From an uncultured Candidatus Berkelbacteria bacterium (GTDB lineage Bacteria; Patescibacteriota; UBA1384; CAILIB01), in contig CAILIB010000015.1 of the NCBI GenBank assembly GCA_903834195.1, positions 1 through 53,145 of the forward strand: a stretch of 53,145 nucleotides of DNA. Reading direction: 5' to 3'. Each line of letters opens with the position of its first letter. Within the stretch, counting starts at the first letter, position 1. Below, piece by piece: positions 2,492 to 19,316 of this stretch. The position numbers were made by a program, and so were the translations under genes. Under the pieces are notes generated by a model. The model made no database searches. It was given only the letters and a program-made list of their open reading frames with translations, and was not told the origin of the DNA.

Positions 2492-3751
2492 ATGGCAGAT
2501 ATCGAACACGCAAATCCATTCGCAAAAAATCGTCGAACAACCCTTGTTCGGAACGTTTTAGGATGGACAATTGCCATCGTAGTGATCGTAGGGGGCTTTG
2601 CCTACTTTACGAGAACCCAACAGAGTTCAATCCTCATTTTAGGATCGACCTCCGATGTGTCCATATCCTTAAATGGCCGAGCTGTACAGGGTAAAAATGA
2701 CCCTCGAGGTATTTCTGTACCTGTTTACTCAGGTGAGTACAGATTGACCCTTACCCGCCCAGATAACGAGCAATTTAGCCAAGATGTGAGCGTGCCGGCC
2801 GGTATTACTGTCTCAATTCGACCTGTCTACACACTGTACACACCACCCTCGTCACCATCCAATTCAAGCAATACAATCGACTACGTTGTTGCAACTCCAG
2901 ACCAAAAAAACATCTACTACCTTGGCGATGACCGAAGTCGGCTATACCGCATGGAAGTTTCCAATCGCTCTGTGATTCCACTCACTCAACAACCGCTTTC
3001 AGGCGTATCAGCAGTGGAGTGGTCAAACGATCCAAGTGTTGCTTTAGTCATACAAACGAATGGAATTTTCTTACAAGAAATTCCAAACTATGACTTCAAA
3101 GGACAACACATTGTCCATGTTGCTGATGACTTTCTCTCACCAAAATGGGACCCAAATGATAACTCGCGCATAGGCGCTGCATACTTTGCTAAGTCGGGTG
3201 AGAAATCACTTGTTCTCGTTGATAAACGTTTTACAACCATTGACCGTAAAGCTGATCTTAGCAACTTCACCAATCCTAAAATTATCTGGTCACCTGATAG
3301 CAAGTACATTGCGGTTATCAATCGTGCAAACGATCCACTCCAGAACAACCTCTGGCTGTACAACCTCTCAACTGGCGAGTTTCGCGCACTGACTTCTGCA
3401 GGTACAGTTCTTGATGCAAGCTTTAGCCCGGGCAGCAATGCAATTTTGTATGAAACCCTGACAAACAATGAACATACCTTACGCGCAAAAAGTGTTGCAA
3501 CGGGAACTGACTTCGCAGTTTCATTCTCAAATACAGTTAAACAAACTGCCTGGAGAGATGATGCAAGTTTTTACACTACAGGAAGTACTAATAACAGCCT
3601 TTCAATACACTCATTGAATGGAGACGCCCAAGATATTACGTACTCTGGACCATCAACAAGCACAATCAGAGGGATGTTCTATTTCAGCAGCTCGCAGACT
3701 TTGGTATTCTATACAGAGAATACAGTTTACACAGTCAGCTTGAACGGTTAG
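2492..3751 (+). CDS. N-terminally anchored protein with PEGA-like domain and TolB/WD40-like beta-propeller
   Basis: 419 aa; N-terminal TM; SDVSISLNGRAVQGKNDPRGISVPVYSGEYRLTLTRP (PEGA-like); repeated WSPDSKYIAVINR / SFSPGSNAILYE blades. Confidence 0.65.
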   Translation: MADIEHANPFAKNRRTTLVRNVLGWTIAIVVIVGGFAYFTRTQQSSILILGSTSDVSISLNGRAVQGKNDPRGISVPVYSGEYRLTLTRPDNEQFSQDVSVPAGITVSIRPVYTLYTPPSSPSNSSNTIDYVVATPDQKNIYYLGDDRSRLYRMEVSNRSVIPLTQQPLSGVSAVEWSNDPSVALVIQTNGIFLQEIPNYDFKGQHIVHVADDFLSPKWDPNDNSRIGAAYFAKSGEKSLVLVDKRFTTIDRKADLSNFTNPKIIWSPDSKYIAVINRANDPLQNNLWLYNLSTGEFRALTSAGTVLDASFSPGSNAILYETLTNNEHTLRAKSVATGTDFAVSFSNTVKQTAWRDDASFYTTGSTNNSLSIHSLNGDAQDITYSGPSTSTIRGMFYFSSSQTLVFYTENTVYTVSLNG

Positions 3752-3776: not shown

Positions 3777-4820
3777 ATGGCGAACGACTCAGGAAGTGGA
3801 GGGGGTGGAGGATTAGTTATAGCACTCATTGCGGCTTTTGCTGCAGGTCCTCTTATTATCCTTATCTTACTTGCCATGGGTTTTGCACAAGATGGCCCAA
3901 GTCCAAAAGGCAGTAGTAAACCCCAAACCATTGACCCAGCTCCAACCTCAAAAGATCAGCCGGCCTTAGCAACGTTTGATCGCAGTGTAGACCCAAAAAA
4001 CTGGCTCGCAAAAAATGGGAGTAACTTATCTGATATAAGTACCCAGTTTCAGAACCAGGATAAGGCCATGTCTGATGGCGTAGCATTCGAAGGTGCACCC
4101 GGTGACCGCGTCACTAAGATGAAAGCACAGCTCAAGATTATGATTGCTGACATTACAGCAATCCAACAAGCAAAAGCAGCCTCACCTGACCAGATTAAAA
4201 AAACTGCCAAGCTCATCACTGACTGGGGAGTCTATGACAATCTCCGCATTATCGCCACTGCAGCAACACTTGCAGATCAGGCAATTGCACTTGTAACCCA
4301 AAACAAAAATGGAACTGGGGATATTGCATATATTGCGTCTCGCCCTGTGATTGTAATCAATAACACAGACCCAAAAGGCCTCGACACATCTGGATTCATC
4401 GTATATTCACTTATCAAAACAAGAATATTTCACGGTAACGATCAGCCAAGTGTTGATATGTTTTACACCAGATACAGCACTGATACACGATTTACTCTTG
4501 TTGACTCAGCACTCAATAGCCGGATTGACGACAGCAAAGCACAAGGCGAACTTCAAAAGGGCGACATTGTGCTGACGAGTACTGGAGATGTGAGTAGTGC
4601 TGATAACGCCCAAAACGTAAACCAGGCGTTTATGTATATAGGAGCAGGACATTCTGAGGGCGATGTTGTTGAGTCAACTGTTTCAGGATCAAAGACTGGA
4701 CCTCAGTTCGACACCTTAAACAACCACCTATCCAGCGGAACAGTTGGTGCAAAACAGAAGATCCAGGTCATTCTACGTTTAGCCACTCCTTCACCATCCA
4801 CAACAACTCCTACACTGTGA
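3777..4820 (+). CDS. Membrane-anchored NlpC/P60-like protein, apparently catalytically inactive
   Basis: 347 aa; TM near N-terminus; GLDTSGFIVYSLIK ... LQKGDIVLTSTG ... QAFMYIGAGHSEGDVVEST aligns with DCSGFV ... LKPGDLV ... HVGIYIG. No Cys in the ORF. Confidence 0.55.
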   Translation: MANDSGSGGGGGLVIALIAAFAAGPLIILILLAMGFAQDGPSPKGSSKPQTIDPAPTSKDQPALATFDRSVDPKNWLAKNGSNLSDISTQFQNQDKAMSDGVAFEGAPGDRVTKMKAQLKIMIADITAIQQAKAASPDQIKKTAKLITDWGVYDNLRIIATAATLADQAIALVTQNKNGTGDIAYIASRPVIVINNTDPKGLDTSGFIVYSLIKTRIFHGNDQPSVDMFYTRYSTDTRFTLVDSALNSRIDDSKAQGELQKGDIVLTSTGDVSSADNAQNVNQAFMYIGAGHSEGDVVESTVSGSKTGPQFDTLNNHLSSGTVGAKQKIQVILRLATPSPSTTTPTL

Positions 4821-7800
4821 GAATTCTCAGCAAAATAATTTGTTGCATTCTGGTTGAACTCTTATTGGTTAACAGTGCGGCTTTTGCAATTCCACTTGCT
4901 CTCGCAGCATCTTCCAGCACTGATGCGAGCGCATATACACTGACAGGATGCACACTTCCAACTTTCTCAACCACTCCAGTTACGTCTGCAACTGTATCTG
5001 ACCCTGCTCTGGTTGAAGATGTAGCTAGTTCAAGCGTAGTAGGGTTTAACTTGGATTTTGAAGGCGGAGAACCACTCTACAATTCTGGCCAGATAAACAC
5101 AATTCTCCAGTCCTTTTCCAAAACCAACGGGGGAACATTTGATTCAGCTACAAATACGTGGACATTTTGTACTAATCAAAATATGGACCGCCTATTCTCA
5201 GGTATTCCTACAAATTCTACCGAACAGCAGTACCTAGATACACTGCAAGATCCATTACCAAAAATATCGATGAGCGATCTCGATCGCTACGCTATTGAAG
5301 GTGAACCATGTCGACTCTTTATCACTGCCACAGGCCAATGTGACGAAACGCTCGTTCCAGATCTCGATGCTACTGGAAAGCAAAAGCTGAACGATGATGG
5401 CACCCCAGCCATGAAGCCAAAGTATTTCGATGATATTTTTACTGCCGGTGCCTCAAAGAATCACTGGGATGCACCTAAAGCAGATGTTAGAATTCTTAAA
5501 ACATTGGTTTATCTAACCACTCCAACTGATCTTGGAGGTGCGAACCACGAGAGTATTACAGTATCCCGCATCATTCAGACAGCAAACAAAAGCACTGAGA
5601 TTGTCGACCCAACGTTAGCTAGTGAAGATACGAGCCAGATTGCTGCCCATAGCTACGACATGGACAACCCTGAACATCCGGTAAAACTGTCTCAGGCGAT
5701 GGATATTAGTGCGATTGACACACTACGTGTCACAACTCGCGTAACAGAACAACGTCGCGCCTGTATTGGCGGGGGAGGGATCAGTTTTGGAAGTAGCTGT
5801 GATAAAGTAACCTACAACTATTCTGCTAGTCCGATCAAAGTATCATGGCAAACTGACGCAGGTGCTGCACAGTCAAGTGTACCTACTGACCTTTACCACG
5901 GTTCACTCTCTTTGTTTAGCGCAGGTCTTGGCAGCCTGCTCAACGATATGAATTTAAATACTACGATTGATCCTACTAAGATCAGTCTTAGTAACTTAGG
6001 AGATGTGAGCAAACTAATTGGAAGCACACTATTAAGCCAATCACTTAACACTCCTGGAAAATCCATTACTGGATGGGACGCCAATTCTACATTAGATTCT
6101 ATCGGCAGATCATATATTGCGGATCAATTAGGACTTCCTGACGGAGCATTATCAGATGGAAATACCACTGATGATATTACTCAAAATATTGGTGAAACCG
6201 CAGTTGAAAACGCCTATGACCTTCCTCATGGATCACTAAAAGGTGCAACTTCAGCCGACATTTGGACAAATGTAGGTCAACGATACCTTGAAGACGTTCT
6301 TGATATTCAACCTAATACACTTACACCTCAACAATACACAACAGCCGGATTGTTAGAGAAAATTGGTCAAGGCAAAATTGAAAAAGCACTTGCATTACAA
6401 CCTACAAGCTTTAGTTCAAACACGTGGGCCACAGATATTGCACCTGCTAAAAATAGTTCTGAGTTTACTAAAGAAAATGCAGGACATCTCGACGATGTTC
6501 TCGGCATTGGGTTCCAAGATACCAATGGGTCATCCAAAAATGTTAACGGATTTACCCCGGGCGATTTCAACGATGCAACTAAAACGCTTCTAAGTAACCC
6601 AACTCCAGCTGCGGTTTCCAAGTATAAGCAACTTATTGGTAGTCGGACAATCGAAAGTAGCATGGGTCGCTTTACCCCTGGTACAGCTTCTGGATCCACA
6701 GCAAAGGCTGAAACTGCGGCGTTCCTACCTGAAATTCTGTCTGCATTCGGAATTACCCTTTACGCAACTCCATTTGGAGTACCTTCTGGTGAAACATTAC
6801 TCTTTGACACAACCAAAGTTACCGGCGCACGAGTTACCTATGGCGCCACAAGTAATGAGACCACAGAAGCCTTAATTAGCAGTGGTATATATACTCGTGA
6901 TCAGATAATTGCACTCACAAAACAAATTTGTGATCTCATTTCGTCTGAAACACTCATTCCGTTTTCCTCACTTCCGAGAGATCTTCAGACTATATTCCAA
7001 AATGGAAACAAGTTTTCTCCAGCTAACTTCCCACCTACTTCACCTTCACAAGCCCCTCAGACTCTTAATACTGTTCTGACGACCTGGCAAATACCTATTC
7101 AAACACTGTTAAATTCAGTAACCAGCCGATTAAACTCCTCGAGCACTGTTGGAACCAACGAAGATGTTCCTACTCTTTTATCTGCTCAAAAAGCTCTCAG
7201 CACCGCAGTGGGAAGTATTAAACAGTATACTGACGGATTACTTACAACTATTGATATCCAAAATCAGAGCGGGCAAAGTGCTGCGCTGAACCTCCCTGGT
7301 ACCGTCTATGCAAGCAATCCGGATGGGACATTCAACACATCCCAAAAAATTATTTCAAGCGACCCGGTCACTACACTATTGAGTGGCAACCTTACTACTG
7401 GAGAACTTTCTCTTATTGGAAAACTGATAATCACTCAGAAGATTATTCCAGACCGACTTTCACAACGCCTAGCTCTTAGCCAAATAGTACAGAGCGAAAG
7501 CACAACGTATGGCGCATTTAACTCATTTGGTGTTGACCCAGGCAGTTGGACTACTAAAGGTTTCGACGACTACGACTTTGAGCGCATCTTTACTAAAGGA
7601 CTTGCGCAAAATGTATTTGATCGTATTGGCAAACTTCAGTTACTCCAAACAACTTGGAACATAACCAATCTCCAACCTCTTTCTGGACAAGGCTCAGTGA
7701 GCAACTCAGCAATGGACCAGATCAATGTCAAACTAAGCCAGGCAGCAAGTGGCTATGCGTTTTATAAAAATGACTTTGATCTATTAAAAAGTGCTATCAC

Positions 7801-10800
7801 TGAGCTCATTAATGGATTAAGCGGTTCAGACAATCTAAAAACTGCGCTAAAGGCGATTGGAGACACGACTACAACACTCTCAATCGGTGGTATTCGTGAC
7901 GCTGCACAAAAATACGAGGTTATTCTTAATAATCCTGCACTCAAAAAGGCAACCGGCGCCACACAAAGTAGCCTCAGTAAAGCCACACCACTCGTACAAG
8001 AGCTAATTGCAGGACACCCTCTCTCTTTCAGTCAAACTGCTGAAGTATCACAATCGGGGACGAACAGCTCTCCTCAAGCCAATAAGAATGCTGACGGATG
8101 TCTTGTTGTGGGAACATTCCGAGACATGATCAGTAATAACCAAGATATTAGCTCACTCATCAAATCGAGTGCTGGTTGTCGTGTTGATGATGCCTTCAAC
8201 CTTCCTGTCGGCTCGATGACTGTCTGGATAAACTCTAATGACAATTCATATAACGGTTTTGCAAAAGCAATTGGAACTTCATTAGAGAAAAATAATACCA
8301 CCCAAATTAGTGATAGTGATTTAGCAGCAGAGGGGAATAAAATTGTTAGTTCAAACTCAGTAAGCTCACTTACTGCTGGAATTCCAGGCGCTGGAGTTGG
8401 TGGTGGATTTAAGGCACAAGACGTGTTCAATGTTCTCAGTGGATATGCAAGTAACACACTCGAGAAAATGGGTACCACAATGGTAGATAACTACCTGAAC
8501 TGGGACACCGGGACTGCCGAAACGCTCGTTAATCCTCGCTGTACTGATCAAACCACCCAAACTATTACTTCATGTGGTCGCACCGACGCAAGTACTAAGC
8601 GTACTCAGGTGATGGCAACCATGGGATTAAAAGAGCTTGGCGATGCACTTAACTTCCCAACTAGCCTCACGCTCAGTTCTTCTCAAAGTTTTGTAAAAAG
8701 CTTTGGCAACGCACGTATTAGTGAAATTCTCGGCTTAGCACAAAACAGTTTTACCGGCTCATTCAAGAATATTATTGCTGCAAACGCAGGCCACCTCGAT
8801 AATCTCCTCAATAGTCTTTCTTGGTACCAAAATCCAGAAATCCGCAATCTTCAAGATATTCAACGATCTCTTCAAGGATATGTAGACGGCAACGGCACTG
8901 TTGGGGATCAATCAAGCGTAGCGGCCGCCCAATCTACATTAACTAGTGTAAGTTCATCACTCGACTCGTTTTACAACACAGTCCTTGGTACCATTACTGA
9001 CCCAGGAAGTAGTGTGTATGGAAAAGATACTACTGCCACAGGAACAACAGCTGACACGATCACAACAGCTGAAGCAAAAGCTGTATCATCGAGCATTTCT
9101 CAGCTCAAGAGTCTTTCCCAAAACTCCTCAATCGGTGATGATCTGCGCAATCAACTTGATGGTACACAACAATCACTCACTTCATCCGGTATCGGGAGTG
9201 ACTCGTGGAACACAAAAGAAAAATCTGCAGTACTTCTTCAGATGTCGAGTTACACAAATCGAATCGGCAGTCTTGGTTCACAATTAGGTGTTTCAGGTGA
9301 TGCATTCCAAAAACTTATTACCGGATCGTTAGACGGCGACTCTATCTCAGTAACAGAAGCAGATAAAGATATTACAAACTCACTTGTTTCAACAGCTACG
9401 AACAAGCTTCTCGCAAACACTCCTTTTGCCAGTTTAACTGATACATTCACAGCGCTTACAAAAGGCCCTGGATGTGACCGTGGGGTTGGATTTAAGGACT
9501 TTCTCCTCGGAACCGGCCCAGATACCGACTTGTCTGATATGTCGAACTGGGGATGTTCTAGTGAAACACTTGGTTCAACAAGTCTTTCTTCATTACTTAC
9601 AGGAAGTGACACAACTTCTACCACATTACGCACCAATCTCTACGACCACCTCCTTAGTCGCAGCTTCGGAATGAATGTCGAGAAAAAGTTGAACTTTGAA
9701 CCTGGAACTATTCGTGCAATTTTCCTCAATCCTTGGGAAGCAAAAGATATTGCCATTGACCAAGGTATCCGTACGATTGGTGCACAAATGCTGAACTTAA
9801 ATTCTCAAGCAAAATTCTCATCTGCCGAAGCTGGCATCTTTAATGGTTTTCGAAACTCGATTATGGCTGGGTTCTGCCCGGTAAATCCGCTTGCTGATTT
9901 GTCTGATTCTCAGAAGAACCAGAGTAAATCGAGTATTGGAATGTGTTCACTCAATTTCAACTCAACCCGTGCACTCGGTGCATTTGAAGGCAGTCTAAAC
10001 CAGGTTCTCGATGACGAACTTAAGAATGGTGGTGGAACAGGTCATAATATTGGACTAACTGACCTTGCAGTAGCATTTGCAGGTGGAATGGATGGCATAT
10101 ATTACCTTGGTGCTGCCGAGATCGCTAAGAATCTCAACATTACCCTTGGAAGCGGCTCAGGTTCTCAAAAGTTTAAGATCAACTTTACTGATATTCGTAA
10201 TGCTTTCGGCGGAACAGCTCTCAGTTCGCAAGACTTGAGCAATGCAGCTCAAACACAACAATCCGACTTCGTCCGAAACTATTACGTCCAATCTGGCTAT
10301 GACCCTTCAACCTTTGATAATGGTGCTGGGGGCATCATTGATATGGGCGGAATGAGCAATCAACAGGTGCTCAACATCTTCAACTCTGATCCGAATATTT
10401 CAAGTACTCAGCGAAGTTACTTGTTAGATACCCAAGCTGGAGTTGGTCAATCGAATGCATCACAGCAAATAAAAGAAGGTGCTCAGCTTCGCCTTCAGTA
10501 TCAGTCGTACGATGCTGCTGCGTACAAACTTGATCCTAATATTCCACAAGGATTTAGCTACGCCATGTTGCGAGGCACTAGTACTGACCGGGCACACTAC
10601 CTTGGCCTATACCTTGCAAATACACTAAACTTCTCCAAGAATCTCTTCGGCGGTTCTGGATTAACCAATGAAATGCTGGTTAATCTTTCCCAATACGCCA
10701 TCACATGTTTCACCGCAAACAGTGGTGCAACATGTAATCAAAGCCTAGTAACTCCACAGAGCCTCGGCCTCCTGGACAAATGGTTTGATGGCCAAGCTGG

Positions 10801-11989
10801 AAAGCTTCTCGGCATTGATTTACCTGCCGGAACTGTTCAAGGAATATTTGCCTGGGGAAGTACAGGGTTCAAAGGAAACACCTTTGATACCAGCAATACG
10901 TACCAAGTTGGCGGAGGTAGCTATGCTCCACTCGGTACAGTCTTACGAACATGGGCGATGAGTAAACTGTTCGGCTGGGCGGACAAAATGCTCGGATTTG
11001 ACCCTGGTACAGTTCTGAGTCTATATCAGGCAGCAAGCCAACTAATCCAGGCACAACAAGCATTAAGTGTGGCCGAATCTTCAGCGCCAGCAGTTAACTC
11101 TGTTGGATCAATCTTCGGCAACCCTGATTTGGGAACTCAAAATGTTGATGCAGCACAGGCTAACCTCGTAGCCGCGCAAGCTGCTGTCGTAAGTACGGTG
11201 ATCAACATAGCCTTCAAGAGCCAGATCGCTGATGCTGAAAAATCACTCGGCCTCGTACCTGGAACTGGGGCGCTCGGAGTGAGCATATTGGTCTGTCTTG
11301 CCATGGGAGCACCAGTTGCACCGCTCACTATCGCACTATTTGTCGCCATCAACCTATTTGGTACCTATAACGTAAAAATTGATGCACGGGCTAGTGGAAG
11401 TGGATACTATCCGTACAAAGGACATTACGGCAGTAATACAGTTGATCCATATCAATTCCCAACAACCAGTGTTCCTGACCTTGGTTCATTTGATGTACAG
11501 AACAGTACTTCCTACCACGCTGGAATCGAAGCTGCAGCTCAAGCTCACGTATATTCACTCCTTCGCGACCTCCTTACCATGCCTGCTCGCTGGCAAGCAG
11601 CAACAGGTCAAAGTGGAAATTCTGTTTGGATTTCTCAGATTTACACTGCCCGTAAAGAAGATGCGGATAACTTAAATGATCTTGTTTCTCAGCCAGCACC
11701 ATGGGAAAACACTGGCGGGTTCGGGTACGGCAGTCTAGAATCACGCGCAAATGTTGCCTACAACAACGCAACTGGAACCTTTGTTGCTAATCCAGACCCA
11801 GGATACCGCGCAGGACTCTTCTACTGTCTTCCATCTGGATCAGGCAATGGTGCCGCCACAAGCAGCAATGCAAATGGCAATGCAAGCACCAGCCCAACTG
11901 CAGCCACAAGCTCAGGTAGTGCAACCCCTGCAGCAGCGACCGCACAAACTTCCTGTGCATTCACCGACCACATCCACCTCCGCTGGTAA
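4817..11989 (+). CDS. Giant secreted repeat protein (2390 aa) of a T4SS-like operon
   Basis: GTG start overlaps the previous stop (GTGA). Signal peptide MRILSKIICCILVELLLVNSAAFA. Many divergent repeats of type G..xIExxLxLPxGTLxG. A single uninterrupted frame. Confidence 0.8.
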   Translation: MRILSKIICCILVELLLVNSAAFAIPLALAASSSTDASAYTLTGCTLPTFSTTPVTSATVSDPALVEDVASSSVVGFNLDFEGGEPLYNSGQINTILQSFSKTNGGTFDSATNTWTFCTNQNMDRLFSGIPTNSTEQQYLDTLQDPLPKISMSDLDRYAIEGEPCRLFITATGQCDETLVPDLDATGKQKLNDDGTPAMKPKYFDDIFTAGASKNHWDAPKADVRILKTLVYLTTPTDLGGANHESITVSRIIQTANKSTEIVDPTLASEDTSQIAAHSYDMDNPEHPVKLSQAMDISAIDTLRVTTRVTEQRRACIGGGGISFGSSCDKVTYNYSASPIKVSWQTDAGAAQSSVPTDLYHGSLSLFSAGLGSLLNDMNLNTTIDPTKISLSNLGDVSKLIGSTLLSQSLNTPGKSITGWDANSTLDSIGRSYIADQLGLPDGALSDGNTTDDITQNIGETAVENAYDLPHGSLKGATSADIWTNVGQRYLEDVLDIQPNTLTPQQYTTAGLLEKIGQGKIEKALALQPTSFSSNTWATDIAPAKNSSEFTKENAGHLDDVLGIGFQDTNGSSKNVNGFTPGDFNDATKTLLSNPTPAAVSKYKQLIGSRTIESSMGRFTPGTASGSTAKAETAAFLPEILSAFGITLYATPFGVPSGETLLFDTTKVTGARVTYGATSNETTEALISSGIYTRDQIIALTKQICDLISSETLIPFSSLPRDLQTIFQNGNKFSPANFPPTSPSQAPQTLNTVLTTWQIPIQTLLNSVTSRLNSSSTVGTNEDVPTLLSAQKALSTAVGSIKQYTDGLLTTIDIQNQSGQSAALNLPGTVYASNPDGTFNTSQKIISSDPVTTLLSGNLTTGELSLIGKLIITQKIIPDRLSQRLALSQIVQSESTTYGAFNSFGVDPGSWTTKGFDDYDFERIFTKGLAQNVFDRIGKLQLLQTTWNITNLQPLSGQGSVSNSAMDQINVKLSQAASGYAFYKNDFDLLKSAITELINGLSGSDNLKTALKAIGDTTTTLSIGGIRDAAQKYEVILNNPALKKATGATQSSLSKATPLVQELIAGHPLSFSQTAEVSQSGTNSSPQANKNADGCLVVGTFRDMISNNQDISSLIKSSAGCRVDDAFNLPVGSMTVWINSNDNSYNGFAKAIGTSLEKNNTTQISDSDLAAEGNKIVSSNSVSSLTAGIPGAGVGGGFKAQDVFNVLSGYASNTLEKMGTTMVDNYLNWDTGTAETLVNPRCTDQTTQTITSCGRTDASTKRTQVMATMGLKELGDALNFPTSLTLSSSQSFVKSFGNARISEILGLAQNSFTGSFKNIIAANAGHLDNLLNSLSWYQNPEIRNLQDIQRSLQGYVDGNGTVGDQSSVAAAQSTLTSVSSSLDSFYNTVLGTITDPGSSVYGKDTTATGTTADTITTAEAKAVSSSISQLKSLSQNSSIGDDLRNQLDGTQQSLTSSGIGSDSWNTKEKSAVLLQMSSYTNRIGSLGSQLGVSGDAFQKLITGSLDGDSISVTEADKDITNSLVSTATNKLLANTPFASLTDTFTALTKGPGCDRGVGFKDFLLGTGPDTDLSDMSNWGCSSETLGSTSLSSLLTGSDTTSTTLRTNLYDHLLSRSFGMNVEKKLNFEPGTIRAIFLNPWEAKDIAIDQGIRTIGAQMLNLNSQAKFSSAEAGIFNGFRNSIMAGFCPVNPLADLSDSQKNQSKSSIGMCSLNFNSTRALGAFEGSLNQVLDDELKNGGGTGHNIGLTDLAVAFAGGMDGIYYLGAAEIAKNLNITLGSGSGSQKFKINFTDIRNAFGGTALSSQDLSNAAQTQQSDFVRNYYVQSGYDPSTFDNGAGGIIDMGGMSNQQVLNIFNSDPNISSTQRSYLLDTQAGVGQSNASQQIKEGAQLRLQYQSYDAAAYKLDPNIPQGFSYAMLRGTSTDRAHYLGLYLANTLNFSKNLFGGSGLTNEMLVNLSQYAITCFTANSGATCNQSLVTPQSLGLLDKWFDGQAGKLLGIDLPAGTVQGIFAWGSTGFKGNTFDTSNTYQVGGGSYAPLGTVLRTWAMSKLFGWADKMLGFDPGTVLSLYQAASQLIQAQQALSVAESSAPAVNSVGSIFGNPDLGTQNVDAAQANLVAAQAAVVSTVINIAFKSQIADAEKSLGLVPGTGALGVSILVCLAMGAPVAPLTIALFVAINLFGTYNVKIDARASGSGYYPYKGHYGSNTVDPYQFPTTSVPDLGSFDVQNSTSYHAGIEAAAQAHVYSLLRDLLTMPARWQAATGQSGNSVWISQIYTARKEDADNLNDLVSQPAPWENTGGFGYGSLESRANVAYNNATGTFVANPDPGYRAGLFYCLPSGSGNGAATSSNANGNASTSPTAATSSGSATPAAATAQTSCAFTDHIHLRW

Positions 11990-11998
11990 ACGACGTAT

Positions 11999-13519
11999 AT
12001 GAGCAACTCATTCGACTCCACAATCCAGCGTATTAACCGACAGACAGAAGAGCAAGCCGCCGAAGCACTCGCGAGTCAACAAGGTTTAAATTATGAAAAA
12101 CTAGACGACTACCCATTTAGTCTCGATGTACTTTCTTTAGTTGATTTGGCAGAAGCAACTCAAAAACAGTATGCACCATACCTCTTAACTAAGGATCAGG
12201 TTAAGATTGCAATTGTTCATCCAGAAAACGCCTTGGTACGTGATGAGATCGTTCTCTTTGGTCGCAAACATAATCTCGCAGTAGAAGAGGCCGTTGTATC
12301 TGGAACGAGCTTTAAGTTACTCCTCGCTTCATGGGCACGTCTTATCGAGGAAAAGAAACAGGGTGAAATCTCTCAAGTTGAAAGTGAGAAGCAAAAAGCT
12401 GAACACGATTACGTCGCCAAGATTAAAACGCTTGAGGATTTACAAAAAGAAGTTGCAACGGTAAGCACTACCGAGTTAATTGATGTTATTGTTGCCGCAG
12501 CAATGAACCAGGGCGCCTCTGATATTCACCTTGAACCAGAGGCTGAAACAATGACTGTTCGATTCCGAGTTGATGGAGTATTACAACGAGTGCTTCAACT
12601 CCCAATGACTCAGCATCACCACCTGATTTCACGTATTAAAATTCTGGCGCACATCAAAATTGACGTACATGGACTGAGTCAAGATGGTCGCTTCAGTATG
12701 AAAGACAAGGGAATAAACGTTGATGTACGTGTTTCAATTGTTCCGACTGGGTATGGGGAAGGGGTGGTAATGCGCTTACTCCACCAGGACGTTGAATCAG
12801 CAACCTTAGAGGCACTCGGATTTTCACCGTATAATTTGGCACTTATTGAAAAAGCAATTCGTCGACCATACGGGTTAATCCTTGTAACAGGTCCTACTGG
12901 TTCAGGTAAATCAACCACACTGTATGCAATCCTACAAAAGTTAAATACGACTGAAAAAAAGATTATCACCTTAGAAGACCCAATTGAGTACCGCATCCCA
13001 GGTGTGCAACAGAGTCAAATTGATGCAGATCACGGCTTTACCTTTGCCGAAGGATTAAAAGGTGCCCTGCGCCAAGACCCTGACATTGTTATGGTGGGTG
13101 AAATACGTGACCCAGAAACAGCCACAATCGCCCTGAACGCGTCTTTAACCGGTCACTTAGTACTTTCTACCCTTCACACCAATGACGCCATTACGGCCCA
13201 CACACGCTTTTTGGAGCTTGGGGTTGAGCCATTCCTCTTAGCGGGGAGTATTAATATGATTATTGCTCAACGACTAGTGCGCACACCTGTGCCAGGGAGC
13301 GACCCTGCAAACCCTACATATAAGGGGAGAACAGTTATTGCTGAGGTGCTTTGTCCTACTCAAGAATTTGAACGCGCTGTTACAAATCACGCGGATCAGA
13401 GTACGTTGCAGGAGCTTGCGATTAAAGGTGGAATGATTCCTATGCTTAAGGATGGTATGGATAAGGTTAAAGAGGGGAAGACGAGCGAGAGCGAGATTTA
13501 CCGTGTGACGGTGGTTTAG
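11999..13519 (+). CDS. GspE/PilB-family type II secretion/type IV pilus ATPase
   Basis: Walker A GPTGSGKSTTLYAIL, ASDIHLEPE, Asp box QDPDIVMVGEIRDPETA, His box TGHLVLSTLHTNDA. Confidence 0.92.
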   Translation: MSNSFDSTIQRINRQTEEQAAEALASQQGLNYEKLDDYPFSLDVLSLVDLAEATQKQYAPYLLTKDQVKIAIVHPENALVRDEIVLFGRKHNLAVEEAVVSGTSFKLLLASWARLIEEKKQGEISQVESEKQKAEHDYVAKIKTLEDLQKEVATVSTTELIDVIVAAAMNQGASDIHLEPEAETMTVRFRVDGVLQRVLQLPMTQHHHLISRIKILAHIKIDVHGLSQDGRFSMKDKGINVDVRVSIVPTGYGEGVVMRLLHQDVESATLEALGFSPYNLALIEKAIRRPYGLILVTGPTGSGKSTTLYAILQKLNTTEKKIITLEDPIEYRIPGVQQSQIDADHGFTFAEGLKGALRQDPDIVMVGEIRDPETATIALNASLTGHLVLSTLHTNDAITAHTRFLELGVEPFLLAGSINMIIAQRLVRTPVPGSDPANPTYKGRTVIAEVLCPTQEFERAVTNHADQSTLQELAIKGGMIPMLKDGMDKVKEGKTSESEIYRVTVV

Positions 13520-13532
13520 TAGGCTCTCCTAG

Positions 13533-13561
13533 TTGCTAAAATGGCTTGATTGTGCTATATT
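13533..13561 (+). promoter_or_regulatory. Sigma70-like promoter for the lipoprotein gene
   Basis: TTGCTA (13533-13538), 17-bp spacer, TATATT (13556-13561); ATG at 13571. Confidence 0.5.
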
Positions 13562-13570
13562 TCGCACGTC

Positions 13571-14473
13571 ATGCGAACCTTTTCCAAATTCGGCATCGCG
13601 GCCATTGCCGCCTTTTCTTTGTTTCTCTGTGGATGCAGCAGTGCACCCATTAAAGAGACTACACTGGAGAATTCTTCTCCCAATCTCTCACTCGCAACAT
13701 CCAGTCCCAGTAGCGATGCGAAGGCTGTGCCTCCGTATGCGCTCCTAACTCGTCGTTTCGACCTCAGCAGCAGTCCAACCCGGGCTACCTGTGAGTACTT
13801 CCCCCTCATTGGAACCACTTTTAAAGTGCTCAATGCAAAGAAGATCGACGGGGGTGCATACACGTATTCAGACGCCGAATCAATCATGGCTGAAGTTCTG
13901 ACTGCACACGGCAGCATCGACCAGGTCGCCATGCAGGGAGGAGTGAATAACATCACCTTCTCGGTGGAAAGTGCCGAGATGAAAATCCCAGCAAGTTCAA
14001 CGTTGCAACTACCTCTGCGAAGGTCGGCCTGGATATACAACTTCGCCTACAAGGACAAAGTCACTAGCAAAGTGGTTAATCGCCAAATCCCGGTCAATTA
14101 TCTCGATGACCCAGACCAGCGGCAAGTGCTCGTTGACACAATCAACGACATTAGCAGGAATATCGAGCGAAAAGTGGACGATTGCATCGTCCGGCAGACC
14201 AGCCATGGTGAACTGTGGTGGGCGAAAGACGGCCCTGAGGCCGGAAAAAAGTGGCTTGAACATCTAAATGGCATGCGGAAGCAGGCCATGGCCTACTGCG
14301 AAAAGAATGACCTACCGTACACAGATCAGTTTCCCGGCAACCCGGATTCTGTCAGTGCGCACACGACGTCTGCAAGTTCGGTAACTGGACCATCAGCCAC
14401 AGAAGGATACCGAATAGCAATGGCGTACGCCACGTATCGCGACATGACCCGACACGGGTTTGTCGCAAAATGA
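13571..14473 (+). CDS. Putative lipoprotein of unknown function
   Basis: MRTFSKFGIAAIAAFSLFLCGCSSAP has a lipobox (LCGC). The start was moved from the ORF-track TTG to the ATG at 13571. Confidence 0.6.
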   Translation: MRTFSKFGIAAIAAFSLFLCGCSSAPIKETTLENSSPNLSLATSSPSSDAKAVPPYALLTRRFDLSSSPTRATCEYFPLIGTTFKVLNAKKIDGGAYTYSDAESIMAEVLTAHGSIDQVAMQGGVNNITFSVESAEMKIPASSTLQLPLRRSAWIYNFAYKDKVTSKVVNRQIPVNYLDDPDQRQVLVDTINDISRNIERKVDDCIVRQTSHGELWWAKDGPEAGKKWLEHLNGMRKQAMAYCEKNDLPYTDQFPGNPDSVSAHTTSASSVTGPSATEGYRIAMAYATYRDMTRHGFVAK

Positions 14474-15322: not shown

Positions 15323-16801
15323 CTAAACCTCTAATATTGTGCGAAGGTTTTCAACCGCATGACCCTCTTCCCATTTTGCAAGCAAGTCCTGAAACATGGT
15401 TGTTTGAAACAGCTTTGAAAATTCAGTTCGGACTTTTTCCCACTTTGGAATAATGAGCCGTTCTGTTTGCTGAACACAGCGTGAAGCACCAATTACAGCA
15501 CCGCAATCTCTATACAGATCATCAAAGGTTTCGATAAGCCGTTTTTGACCTTCACCAATAGGCAAGCCCATTTCAACTGCGCGCTGGGCGCTTAGCTGCA
15601 TATCCTTAACTATGAAGAACCCCTGTAAATAGGCCAAAAGCCGTTTAGTAGATTCTTGATCCTCCTGGTTATCACCCACAAGTTCCCAGTGGAGACCTTC
15701 TTTGAGAATTGTATACACGTTACTTGTGGCAGAAAACCAACCTGGTTTATGTTGGAGAAAGGAAGAATGCAATTCATCAAGGTGCGCATGTTGACTACGA
15801 AGCCCGTCTATATCTGAAGGCGAGAATTGCCGATTTAATATATCGGAATAATATTGAGCATCTCGCATGTAGGCTTCCTGCGAACTACGCGCACGTGTTT
15901 CTGGTAAAACACTATCTCGAGCAGAGCTACTGTTAATTCCTGAATGGAGCGGGGAATCGGAGTCAACACTTAATAAATAATCAGTTAAAAACTTAGTGTG
16001 ATGATGTAACTCGTGAATGATAGAAGTGGTCGGAGTTACATTATCAGTTCGTAACTCAATATTTATATCTACTACAACAAATGAAAGACATGAGCTCGAT
16101 GCATTGTATCGGGCACCACGACTACCGCGAGGGTCTGGAATAGGGAATGAGTACGGCCCTACCTGAACTAACCCTTGCCAATCTGCAGAGTTACACGTCA
16201 CTACAACTGCTCCCATGACACGTTTTACATCAAGAATTGCAGAGTGTGCAGTACAATCTGCTACTAATTGTGCTGATTTTTCACTCCTACTGTTCCAGGC
16301 TTCCAATAGAGCTGGTTCAAATTGACCCATAATAGCGGGGTCAAGAAGGTCTTTGGAGACAGCGTTTTGTTCTATGTGCCCTGTATGTGGATCTACACTA
16401 ACACCCTCAACATAATGGTCCATGAAAGAAAGAAATGGGACAATTTGCTCAATTTTCTCGTCACCTTCCTGATGCTCAAACTTTTCACGGTTTGAATCAT
16501 CACCTTCGAGAAGTTCAACAGATGTGACCGGTGACGAATTACTACCTTCAAAGTAGACCTGTCTACCCGGAAGAAAACTTGTATTAAGAAGTCGCCCTCC
16601 ATATCCTACCAAAGGGCCGGTTCCACTTTTAAAGAAGATATGGCGCTCACTTCCTTCGGTGGTTAATTCGGCCATGTACCGTGAGTTTCGCGTGTTAATT
16701 ACAAGTTCACAGGTGTCGGGAAGTGCCGAAATCTCTAATTCACCCTCTTGTTTGGGTGATGTGATTTCATTTTTGCCAAAACGTTCCTGAAAGGTGTTCA
16801 T
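15323..16801 (-). CDS. Hypothetical protein with an HExxH zinc-metallopeptidase motif
   Basis: 492 aa; TTSIIHELHHHTKFLTDYLLS contains HELHH. No signal peptide seen. Confidence 0.55.
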   Translation of the reverse strand: MNTFQERFGKNEITSPKQEGELEISALPDTCELVINTRNSRYMAELTTEGSERHIFFKSGTGPLVGYGGRLLNTSFLPGRQVYFEGSNSSPVTSVELLEGDDSNREKFEHQEGDEKIEQIVPFLSFMDHYVEGVSVDPHTGHIEQNAVSKDLLDPAIMGQFEPALLEAWNSRSEKSAQLVADCTAHSAILDVKRVMGAVVVTCNSADWQGLVQVGPYSFPIPDPRGSRGARYNASSSCLSFVVVDINIELRTDNVTPTTSIIHELHHHTKFLTDYLLSVDSDSPLHSGINSSSARDSVLPETRARSSQEAYMRDAQYYSDILNRQFSPSDIDGLRSQHAHLDELHSSFLQHKPGWFSATSNVYTILKEGLHWELVGDNQEDQESTKRLLAYLQGFFIVKDMQLSAQRAVEMGLPIGEGQKRLIETFDDLYRDCGAVIGASRCVQQTERLIIPKWEKVRTEFSKLFQTTMFQDLLAKWEEGHAVENLRTILEV

Positions 16802-17261: not shown

Positions 17262-17954
17262 ATGGGCACCGTTTGCATCACATTTGTGGTGCTTGGAGTG
17301 CTCATCTCAAAGACGTGCCTGCCACAGCTCGACAGTATCGAGCTACGACCGTTCCCGAAAGGAACAAGGAGACTGACCATCCCTTACAACATGCTCAGAG
17401 TGCCGAAAGAATATGCTGGACAGATTCGCGACCTTCTTACGAAGCTCAAAAGTGCTGACGTAGGAGTTGAATGGCTGGAAGCCTTAAAATTGTTTCTTCG
17501 TAAGGAGAACCCCTGGCCCCTCCTCGTCACGATTTTTAAAGGCATCGATGCTCTCATCACAGCCGGTGGCTACCAGAAGCTGGACAGCTGGATCTGCGAT
17601 CAAAACGCACCCCAGTATATCCACACTGGCAGTGACACAGTGGTCGAGTACCTCTATTTGGGAGCTTTGAGCTCTTCAGAAGAAGGTCTCGATAAGATGA
17701 AGGCGATGGGCTACCGCCCAGCACAAGACCCTGAAGTACTCGCTCAAGATATGAAGCATCCCGACCAACTGGTCGAGAGAAACCCTGTCGTTGTTCTAGG
17801 CTCGGTCTGGCAGAATCGCAATGGCAACCGCAACCGCGCTGATTCTCAACCGCAATGGTGCGAACCGCAAGGTCAACCTAAATTGGTGGAGCAACAGGTG
17901 AATCTCGAACTGATGTGGAAGGGATTCGAACACCCTAACCTGAAGAAAATTTAA
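17262..17954 (+). CDS. Hypothetical protein, cassette ORF 1
   Basis: 230 aa uninterrupted ORF followed by an intrinsic terminator. No recognised family. Confidence 0.5.
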   Translation: MGTVCITFVVLGVLISKTCLPQLDSIELRPFPKGTRRLTIPYNMLRVPKEYAGQIRDLLTKLKSADVGVEWLEALKLFLRKENPWPLLVTIFKGIDALITAGGYQKLDSWICDQNAPQYIHTGSDTVVEYLYLGALSSSEEGLDKMKAMGYRPAQDPEVLAQDMKHPDQLVERNPVVVLGSVWQNRNGNRNRADSQPQWCEPQGQPKLVEQQVNLELMWKGFEHPNLKKI

Positions 17955-18233: not shown

Positions 18234-19316
18234 ATGGAAAGGACATTTAAAAATCGAAGTATCGGAATCAGCGGACTAATGTCGGCAAATGAAGTGATTT
18301 CTATGCACGCACTTTTTATCCGACCCTGGGGTACCTATCACGCCGGGGAATACCAAAGCGGTGTGTATCCTGAGATAAGTCTCGGGGCAAACGTTTCTTC
18401 TGAATCACTTAGGACGGCGGAAGCTAACCCTGCTAGACTCTTGCCAAGCGTAGATCAGCTTGGTGACATCTTCTTTCAAGTAGGATGGCTTGAAATGGGT
18501 CGCAGCTTTGCTTGCTTCACTGCACCGAGTGATGAAGGGTTGGCTGATGAGTTAGAGCTTCTTTTTACGAGGTGCCCCTGTGAGGGTATTCAGCTCAACA
18601 TGCTCTGGCCAAACCCGACGGAGGTTGCACGCTTCCGGGAGAAACACCCGCACACACGCCTTACCCTACAAATCGGTCGTAACGCTCTAAACGAAGTTGA
18701 ATGGAACCCAGAAACACTTGTGAAGGTTGTTGAGCACTACTTTGGAGACATCCAGGCAGTGCTGCTTGACCTGAGCGAGGGAGAGGAGTTCACCTTTGAC
18801 CCTGAAGACTTAAAGCCGATCGTTGAAGCACTGATGCGCTTCCATAACCTTGAAATCGGGGTTGCGGGATGGCTCTCTGCTGAATCGATGCACCTGATTG
18901 CGCCGCTCGTTTCCATTTGTTCCTACCTTTCGGTAGAGGCAGGAGAGGTTGGGGGTAAGCTCCGTAACCCAGACGGCAGCTTCAACTATGAAGCGGTGGA
19001 CGCGTACCTTAAGGCGGCGTTTGCTGTCCTTTACGGTGAAAAGGAAATGCCTGATCTTGAGGCTGAACCACGGAGAGAGGAGCCGCATGGCCCACCTATT
19101 TCAATTCATGGAGCACAGCGTCAATTCGGACATCTCTCATCAATAAACTACTGGGGTGCAACGGCAGAGATCGAAGATGGGCTTCGCAGCTCTGGAAGAG
19201 GTCGACCAATCTGTCTAAAATGCGGGGAGCTCATGTTTCCTGCTGACGATCACGGCAGGTACACCTGTATTTGTAGCCTTGGAGATGTTGTTGATCTTGC
19301 AATGGACGACTTCTAG
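18234..19316 (+). CDS. Hypothetical protein, cassette ORF 2: TIM-barrel-like domain plus C-terminal zinc-ribbon-like CxxC...CxC
   Basis: 360 aa; SD ACGGAGGATTGAATG; IGISGLMSANEV and IGVAGWLSAESMHLIAPLV; C-terminus CLKCGELMFPADDHGRYTCIC. Confidence 0.6.
   Translation: MERTFKNRSIGISGLMSANEVISMHALFIRPWGTYHAGEYQSGVYPEISLGANVSSESLRTAEANPARLLPSVDQLGDIFFQVGWLEMGRSFACFTAPSDEGLADELELLFTRCPCEGIQLNMLWPNPTEVARFREKHPHTRLTLQIGRNALNEVEWNPETLVKVVEHYFGDIQAVLLDLSEGEEFTFDPEDLKPIVEALMRFHNLEIGVAGWLSAESMHLIAPLVSICSYLSVEAGEVGGKLRNPDGSFNYEAVDAYLKAAFAVLYGEKEMPDLEAEPRREEPHGPPISIHGAQRQFGHLSSINYWGATAEIEDGLRSSGRGRPICLKCGELMFPADDHGRYTCICSLGDVVDLAMDDF

Follow-up and report, generated by a model that had tools for sequence, protein, structure and literature searches.

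According to a recent report, the type IV secretion systems (T4SSs) of Patescibacteria are related to the conjugation systems of monoderms, often lie near dnaA and mostly lack a relaxase (PMC12102498). In the cluster of Southlakia epibionticum (SEML1_0006-0019; Wang et al. 2023, PMC10633639; Quinonero-Coronel et al. 2025, PMC12102498), the one member tested by transposon sequencing, the system is required for growth on the host, and a 2024 perspective called the role of the Patescibacteria T4SS 'completely unknown' (PMC11665869). Here we analysed a stretch of 53,145 nucleotides from an uncultured Candidatus Berkelbacteria bacterium (contig CAILIB010000015.1, called the window hereafter), which encodes at positions 4817-11989 a protein of 2390 aa, called the giant hereafter. 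Its gene belongs to a chromosomal, dnaA-proximal T4SS operon of Patescibacteria and is kept across the class. This operon shares VirB4, TrsD, PrgI/VirB3, wall-lytic genes and the proximity to dnaA with the Southlakia cluster, and no relaxase was seen nearby; however, the accessible parts of both papers describe no giant repeat protein, and Southlakia belongs to a different class, Saccharimonadia. The giant is apparently an undescribed class-wide T4SS component. Our literature search found no paper linking Berkelbacteria with VirB4, or Patescibacteria with carboxypeptidase and VirB4, but because its coverage was partial, these missing papers are weak evidence of novelty.

The reading frame of the giant is intact, with a GTG start at 4817 and a stop at 11987-11989 (+ strand, as are all the features of the operon and of the protein given below), and translation confirmed the position and length given in the original prediction, an earlier annotation made by a model from the sequence alone. 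The gene is single-copy in its 1.13-Mb genome and it is the fourth after virB4. Window bases 1-258 encode the C-terminal 85 aa of VirB4, the T4SS ATPase, and continue the VirB4 of a family member (L022; Pfam P-loop_TraG, E 5e-30) nearly residue for residue. The remainder of this VirB4 was found on contig G000:C24, ending around 3 residues (around 9 nt) before the window start as judged against L022, with TrsD- and PrgI-like open reading frames (ORFs) directly before it. Since both contigs break inside one virB4, around 9 nt apart, we take the window contig and C24 (C24:1-1510) to be neighbours. Three genes separate virB4 from the giant: a 738-aa protein with a Pro-rich cytoplasmic N-terminus, one transmembrane (TM) helix and a C39-like peptidase (268-2484; Pfam Peptidase_C39_2, E 2.8e-10), a slot that holds other wall-lytic domains in relatives; a 419-aa single-TM protein with a TolB-like propeller (2492-3751; cluster 1; NCBIfam TolB, E 5e-8, sub-threshold); and a 347-aa single-TM protein with a weak NlpC/P60 match (3777-4820; E 0.17; cluster 14 in family f1), whose gene shares its last 4 nt with the beginning of the giant gene. 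The operon order is virB3/prgI, trsD, virB4, wall-lytic gene, propeller gene, small membrane protein gene and giant.

The same surroundings recur across the 35 loci compared, where the giant is found beside VirB4/TrsD families (17 of 35), PrgI (7 of 35), the TM-propeller protein of cluster 1 (25 of 35), wall-lytic proteins of the M23, VanY, NlpC/P60, C39 or lysozyme-like type, and dnaA/dnaN/recF; dnaA lay within the examined stretch in 23 of 35. The Pfam matches in these loci included the TraG P-loop (E 1.7e-26), PrgI (E 2.8e-10, in L034) and the M23, NlpC and VanY wall enzymes. A polytopic, VirB6-like ORF without a Pfam match is present in the relatives L034, L099 and L100.

Regarding its breadth, the profile search that the original prediction had asked for showed that homologues occur class-wide. 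Among 47 genomes of the class, each at least 85% complete, the profile of the N-terminal block of the giant had matches in 40. A motif-based search with PF13539 added three genomes missed by this profile (G040, G044 and G047), and in all three only a few genes lie between the giant and virB4 and prgI. These homologues measure around 850-2965 aa and there is essentially one per genome. The named relatives are metagenome-assembled genomes that carry the label Candidatus Berkelbacteria or Patescibacteria group bacterium, and a single one is labelled Nealsonbacteria. Across a sample of the phylum as a whole, the full form was seen only in this class and in a single additional family (f37). Furthermore, families f49 and f59, which belong to other classes of the phylum, have short relatives of 665-750 aa that retain both protein ends around a small middle. 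Their genes in G096 and G149 lie after the propeller gene and diverge from VirB6-like, PrgI, TrsD and VirB4 genes. A scan of contigs by broad alignment was unsuccessful for want of conserved stretches, and a closer alignment gave 14 loci. Another very long ORF, of 3826 aa, was seen in G006:C9 (L144:6280-17757); it has a TM N-terminus and repeated beta-type segments, is unrelated to the giant, and is probably a different large surface protein.

The giant has a Sec signal, replaced in some relatives by a TM helix at the N-terminus, as well as a C-terminal hairpin and a large helical middle with repeats. A Sec-type signal peptide (KIICCILVELLLVNSAAFAIPLALAA, 4817-4909, hydropathy peak 2.47) bears out the earlier view that the protein is secreted and is conserved in most homologues, whereas L029, L037, L038, L048 and L051 have instead a charged N-terminus and one TM helix. 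A hydrophobic hairpin (residues 2144-2184, 11246-11368) is conserved near the C-terminus in most full-length homologues, generally at most around 250 residues from the end. With a two-helix hairpin, both protein ends would lie outside the cell.

Conservation in the giant is highest in the N-terminal block (residues 216-347), which contains SAHxxGQAVDIS and PIKVxWQ, and at the extreme C-terminus. The homologues end in ..[DA]xxHIG[FY], which reads DHIHLRW in the window. Members of peptidase family M15 (M15_4 PF13539, VanY PF02557, M15_2 PF05951) likewise have SxHxxGxAxD near the N-terminus and a C-terminal His, often with an Asp three residues before it. Judged by sequence, the two ends of the giant are probably two halves of one M15-peptidase-like domain (zinc D-Ala peptidase fold). 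The N half (residues 216-347, 5462-5857) has H278 and D296 at the SxHxxGxAxD positions, and the C half (residues 2236-2390, 11522-11986) has D2384 and H2387 at the positions of the acid and the third ligand; in the window protein the insert between them measures around 1,890 aa. When the end sequences were joined, which was done for in-silico comparison only, they aligned as a compact domain of around 200 aa in which S63, H65, G68, A70, D72 and H191 were invariant or nearly so, so that both SxHxxGxAxD and a third-ligand His near the C-terminus were found in this ten-member set. Among the fused members, 22 of 23 end in H-x-x-[FYW], and the residue three before the last His is Asp in 12 of 22, and Ala, Asn or Phe in the others. 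As the window copy keeps H278, D296, D2384 and H2387, the domain may be enzymatically active in some members, but the acid varies in this way across the family. Unlike M15, the domain of the giant is split, its scores are sub-threshold, its acid is variable and it has an extra PIKVxWQ strand and helix. The split-domain reading is supported by the short forms, in which little separates the two ends, and by L101 and L102, where a coiled-coil-like insert interrupts this domain at another position and an ISGY strand precedes the motif, as in M15 enzymes. For the in-silico joins of L102 and L051, an M15 family was the only match (M15_2, E 0.019, and M15_4, E 0.049, respectively; both sub-threshold).

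We also searched 99 genomes with Pfam Peptidase_M15_4, blind to the giants, and 11 of the 31 sub-threshold matches fell inside known giants (binomial p about 1e-11 to 4e-18). Three of the other long-ORF matches, in G022, G040 and G047, have the same C-terminal H.H..[FY]-type end; those of G040 and G047 are near virB4/prgI, and that of G022 is beside recF-dnaN-dnaA. The M15_3 model gave three weak matches, none of them in a giant. The M15_4 scan shows that the giants and M15 have a real motif in common, although convergence could also produce it. Bona fide VanY/M15_4 proteins occur in the same operon in some relatives. Operon neighbours with a true or likely M15 domain (VanY, M15_4) were seen at L039:15504-17120, L027:16325-17740 and L104:13439-14632, one of them ending in ..HNHIHIGF.., much like the end of the giant, and such neighbours are a possible source of its split domain.

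The original prediction described the protein as built from about 15 divergent copies of a helix-LPxGT motif. The repeat is real and becomes unambiguous once homologues are added to the profile evidence. Across homologues the consensus is DDILENIGRAKIEEELGLPPGSLQGASLDE, with a period of around 29 aa and strongly conserved G, E, L, LP and GS[LF]; the unit can be written as helix-LGLPxGSLxG. A hidden Markov model (HMM) grown from four window units at residues 424-538 found 158 copies, with some in each of the 35 homologues, and zero copies at 4 bits or more in reversed or shuffled decoys. With a repeat profile trained without the window's own family, five window copies scored between 12.7 and 23.0 bits, whereas 500 local shuffles reached 6.0 bits at most. 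These are residues 424-451 (6086-6169, 23.0 bits), 452-480 (6170-6256, 15.8 bits), 481-505 (6257-6331, 13.8 bits, profile match 484-504), 511-538 (6347-6430, 17.5 bits) and 1292-1318 (8690-8770, 12.7 bits), the last being a single copy with counterparts at a comparable position in many homologues. A second form, LG(L/F)xPGT, occurs at four sites in the C-terminal half, all in conserved alignment columns: residues 1617-1636 (9665-9724), 1991-2011 (10787-10849), 2052-2070 (10970-11026) and 2137-2154 (11225-11278), which runs into the hydrophobic hairpin. The expression L[GNDK][LFIVM]..P.G[ST] matched the window protein 5 times against 0.06 expected, namely at these four variants and at LNLPGT at residue 824, and it matched 83 times across the family against 1.4 expected.

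Nine copies are thus statistically supported, because the five profile matches and the four PGT variants exceed the shuffles. Around five further copies (394, 554, 606, 1119 and 1324) are plausible, none being significant alone: residues 394-419 (5996-6073) show column conservation, 554-568 (6476-6520) fall in an aligned column, 606-626 (6632-6694) score 0.3 bits alone and 1119-1134 (8171-8218) fall in a partly conserved column. The count of about 15 is therefore a fair upper estimate only and, while the divergent copies hold, they make up only part of the protein. Many homologues have a common layout of three to four tandem units near residues 420-540, one or two in mid-protein and one near 1300-1450. 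The self-alignment suggested earlier, done with ungapped 30-aa segments, gave 25 self-matches scoring at least 32 against a shuffle mean of around 12, but its top score was no better than that of shuffles; the signal of the window alone was too weak and we rejected it as proof of repeats. The repeats are inconspicuous in a single protein because the copies are too diverged. Only the letters L-P-x-G-T are superficially shared with sortase substrates (LPXTG), and we rejected that assignment: the order here is LPxGT/S, the motif is internal and repeated, and the C-terminus (...TDHIHLRW) has no C-terminal sorting signal.

Neither the protein sequence nor its block profiles matched a meaningful family in Pfam, NCBIfam, PHROG or PDB, in line with the earlier statement that none was recognised; matches such as DNA_pol_lambd_f, LPD22 and the AcrA coiled coil were at chance level. 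Structure prediction of the repeat block, also proposed earlier, was done with AlphaFold2 (AF2) in models covering residues 205-640 and 1475-2335. The repeat block gave helices of 16-20 aa every 29 aa or so (predicted local confidence, pLDDT, 70-88), each unit forming a single helix and the LPxGS stretches linking these helices, and the C-terminal half was almost wholly helical. The helices are visible in these models, whereas the global fold is not confident, and Foldseek of both models against PDB found nothing at E <= 0.001. Two further candidates were ruled out: a phage tape-measure protein, as the giant is exported and matches no phage family, and a polymorphic toxin, as the C-terminal end is conserved across homologues instead of being a variable toxin domain.

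Taking these data together, we consider it rather probable that the giant is a structural part of the Patescibacteria (MPF-FATA-derived) T4SS that is exported and anchored in the membrane. The operon linkage, the partial repeats and the split M15-like ends point to a T4SS accessory or scaffold with probable cell-wall affinity. Neither these M15-like ends nor the VirB4 end had been recognised in the original prediction. From these features we infer a role in anchoring, peptidoglycan binding, scaffolding or contact. The giant would first be exported by Sec and then be retained by its hairpin in the cell's own membrane. Both M15-like halves would meet on the outer face of this membrane and bind peptidoglycan, which members that keep the catalytic acid might cleave instead. 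The helical loop, of around 1,890 residues in the window, would project from this clamp as a wall-spanning or host-facing scaffold of the T4SS. Given the operon, such a wall-spanning scaffold or host-facing contact would be the simplest role in this T4SS, which has no outer-membrane core complex or recognised adhesin. Analogous roles are played by surface adhesins in Gram-positive T4SSs and by the outer core complex in diderms. PrgB and PrgC of pCF10, surface proteins of Gram-positive conjugation, are, like the giant, large exported proteins encoded with a monoderm T4SS; however, we found no similarity of the giant to them or to other solved adhesin domains (Pfam, PDB; Foldseek E <= 0.001).

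Several results weigh against this structural reading. No VirB6 gene was located in the window's own genome, nor was a pilin, for which no pilin profile was run. As for the clamp, the kinship with M15 rests on the motif region: no Pfam gathering threshold was reached, the best natural member scoring 19.7 bits (E 6.7e-4) with a cut-off of 25, and no PDB profile match was found. The profile-profile comparison with true M15 spans only the SxHxxGxAxD stretch (25.9 against 8.7-18.4 in 16 controls), the C half gives no signal against M15, AF2 leaves the N half unfolded (pLDDT 28-47, with a 14-sequence alignment), and in the window copy the motif Gly is missing and, as in its family, 11 aa are inserted behind the His. 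Because the match is to the motif only, the C half is without signal, the thresholds are unmet and the fold is not predicted, we describe the domain as M15-like without assigning it to M15.

The original prediction had regarded the protein as an extracellular filament, adhesin or host-contact protein. This surface-protein view, formed without knowledge of the operon, is partly right. Its large size, signal peptide, tandem repeats and rapid divergence outside the end blocks would suit a free-standing adhesin or filament that merely shares the operon and whose repeats polymerise or bind host ligands, and, according to the T4SS literature, no PrgB-like adhesin has been detected in Patescibacteria (PMC12102498). 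Nevertheless, the class-wide operon linkage and dnaA-proximal position argue otherwise, the C-terminal hairpin and end are conserved, unlike a variable adhesin tip, only five strong repeats occur in place of a long regular array, and the short forms have both ends but only a small middle. We therefore regard this explanation as doubtful; the free-standing adhesin does not sit well with the T4SS operon and the split M15-like ends, while the giant may have a contact role inside the T4SS.

We consider it unlikely that the giant is an active VirB1-like wall hydrolase, an M15 D,D- or L,D-peptidase that opens its own or the host peptidoglycan, with the insert as a regulatory or targeting arm. The H..D..H positions occur in almost all class members, the acid is present in more than half, including D2384 with H2387 in the window, and the operon already holds wall enzymes. 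Against this, 10 of 22 members have Ala, Asn or Phe in place of the acid, the short forms lose the first His and Asp (SAYGTGQALGI), the window copy breaks the HxxG spacing, and separate true M15, M23, NlpC and C39 enzymes are encoded next door.

Rather improbable, in our judgement, is a bolder version of the structural role, in which the insert would be the missing extracellular conduit of the Patescibacteria T4SS, with a decayed zinc-peptidase clamp at the wall and a helical-repeat loop of up to around 2,400 residues, with a membrane-inserting hairpin at its end, reaching to or into the host. If this were true, it would be a T4SS architecture not described before, with channel, wall anchor and host contact in one polypeptide. 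Very improbable is also a membrane-inserting tip or pore on the host side, in which the hairpin and the PGT helices form a channel for T4SS cargo in the host membrane. The hairpin is indeed conserved after the LGLVPGT unit near the C-terminus, and extended VirB6 proteins with large hydrophilic parts occur in other T4SSs (PMC12857230); however, plain membrane anchoring accounts for the hairpin equally well, and Foldseek against PDB gave no fold match to pore formers. Actually, extended VirB6 resembles the giant as a very large T4SS-encoded membrane protein with a big hydrophilic part, but the giant has one C-terminal hydrophobic hairpin only and a separate VirB6-like gene exists in L034, L099 and L100. 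Finally, the operon location, large size and low similarity to known proteins would also fit an effector that the T4SS delivers to the host cell. We find this hardly credible, since nearly every homologue has either a Sec signal or a TM helix at its N-terminus, and the membrane hairpin, the conserved, non-polymorphic C-terminus and the essentially single copy per genome also speak against it.

Some observations concern the surroundings of the operon. In the window (1-21700) the T4SS operon and the giant point towards dnaA, probably head-on to replication leaving the origin, and in other families the operon lies on the opposite side of dnaA-dnaN-recF, again pointing towards dnaA. Directly 3' of the giant, in family f1 only, there is a PilB/GspE-type ATPase (11999-13519, + strand; Pfam T2SSE, E 7e-111), whereas elsewhere dnaA-region genes follow; it is not thought to be part of the T4SS. 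The ORFs at 13550-14473, which looks like a lipoprotein, 15323-16801, 17262-17954 and 18234-19316, near the origin, had no meaningful match in Pfam or NCBIfam. Furthermore, a second VirB4 and TrsD pair was seen at G000:C19:30784-31854 (L150:10821-13212), near serine-recombinase-like and XRE-like ORFs; two in-frame TGA codons were counted in its P-loop match, so that the pair may belong to another T4SS of this genome that is mobile or decayed.

The question addressed here is what the Patescibacteria T4SS does and by what means, in the absence of known adhesins, it reaches the host. To this question we add a large class-wide operon protein with its repeat, its topology and a base that is probably a split M15-like domain, together with its short counterparts from other classes. 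The giant is thus a candidate for a missing part of a machine that is essential for living on another bacterium. It is a concrete target for structure work and, if cultivable relatives carry a counterpart, for knock-outs.

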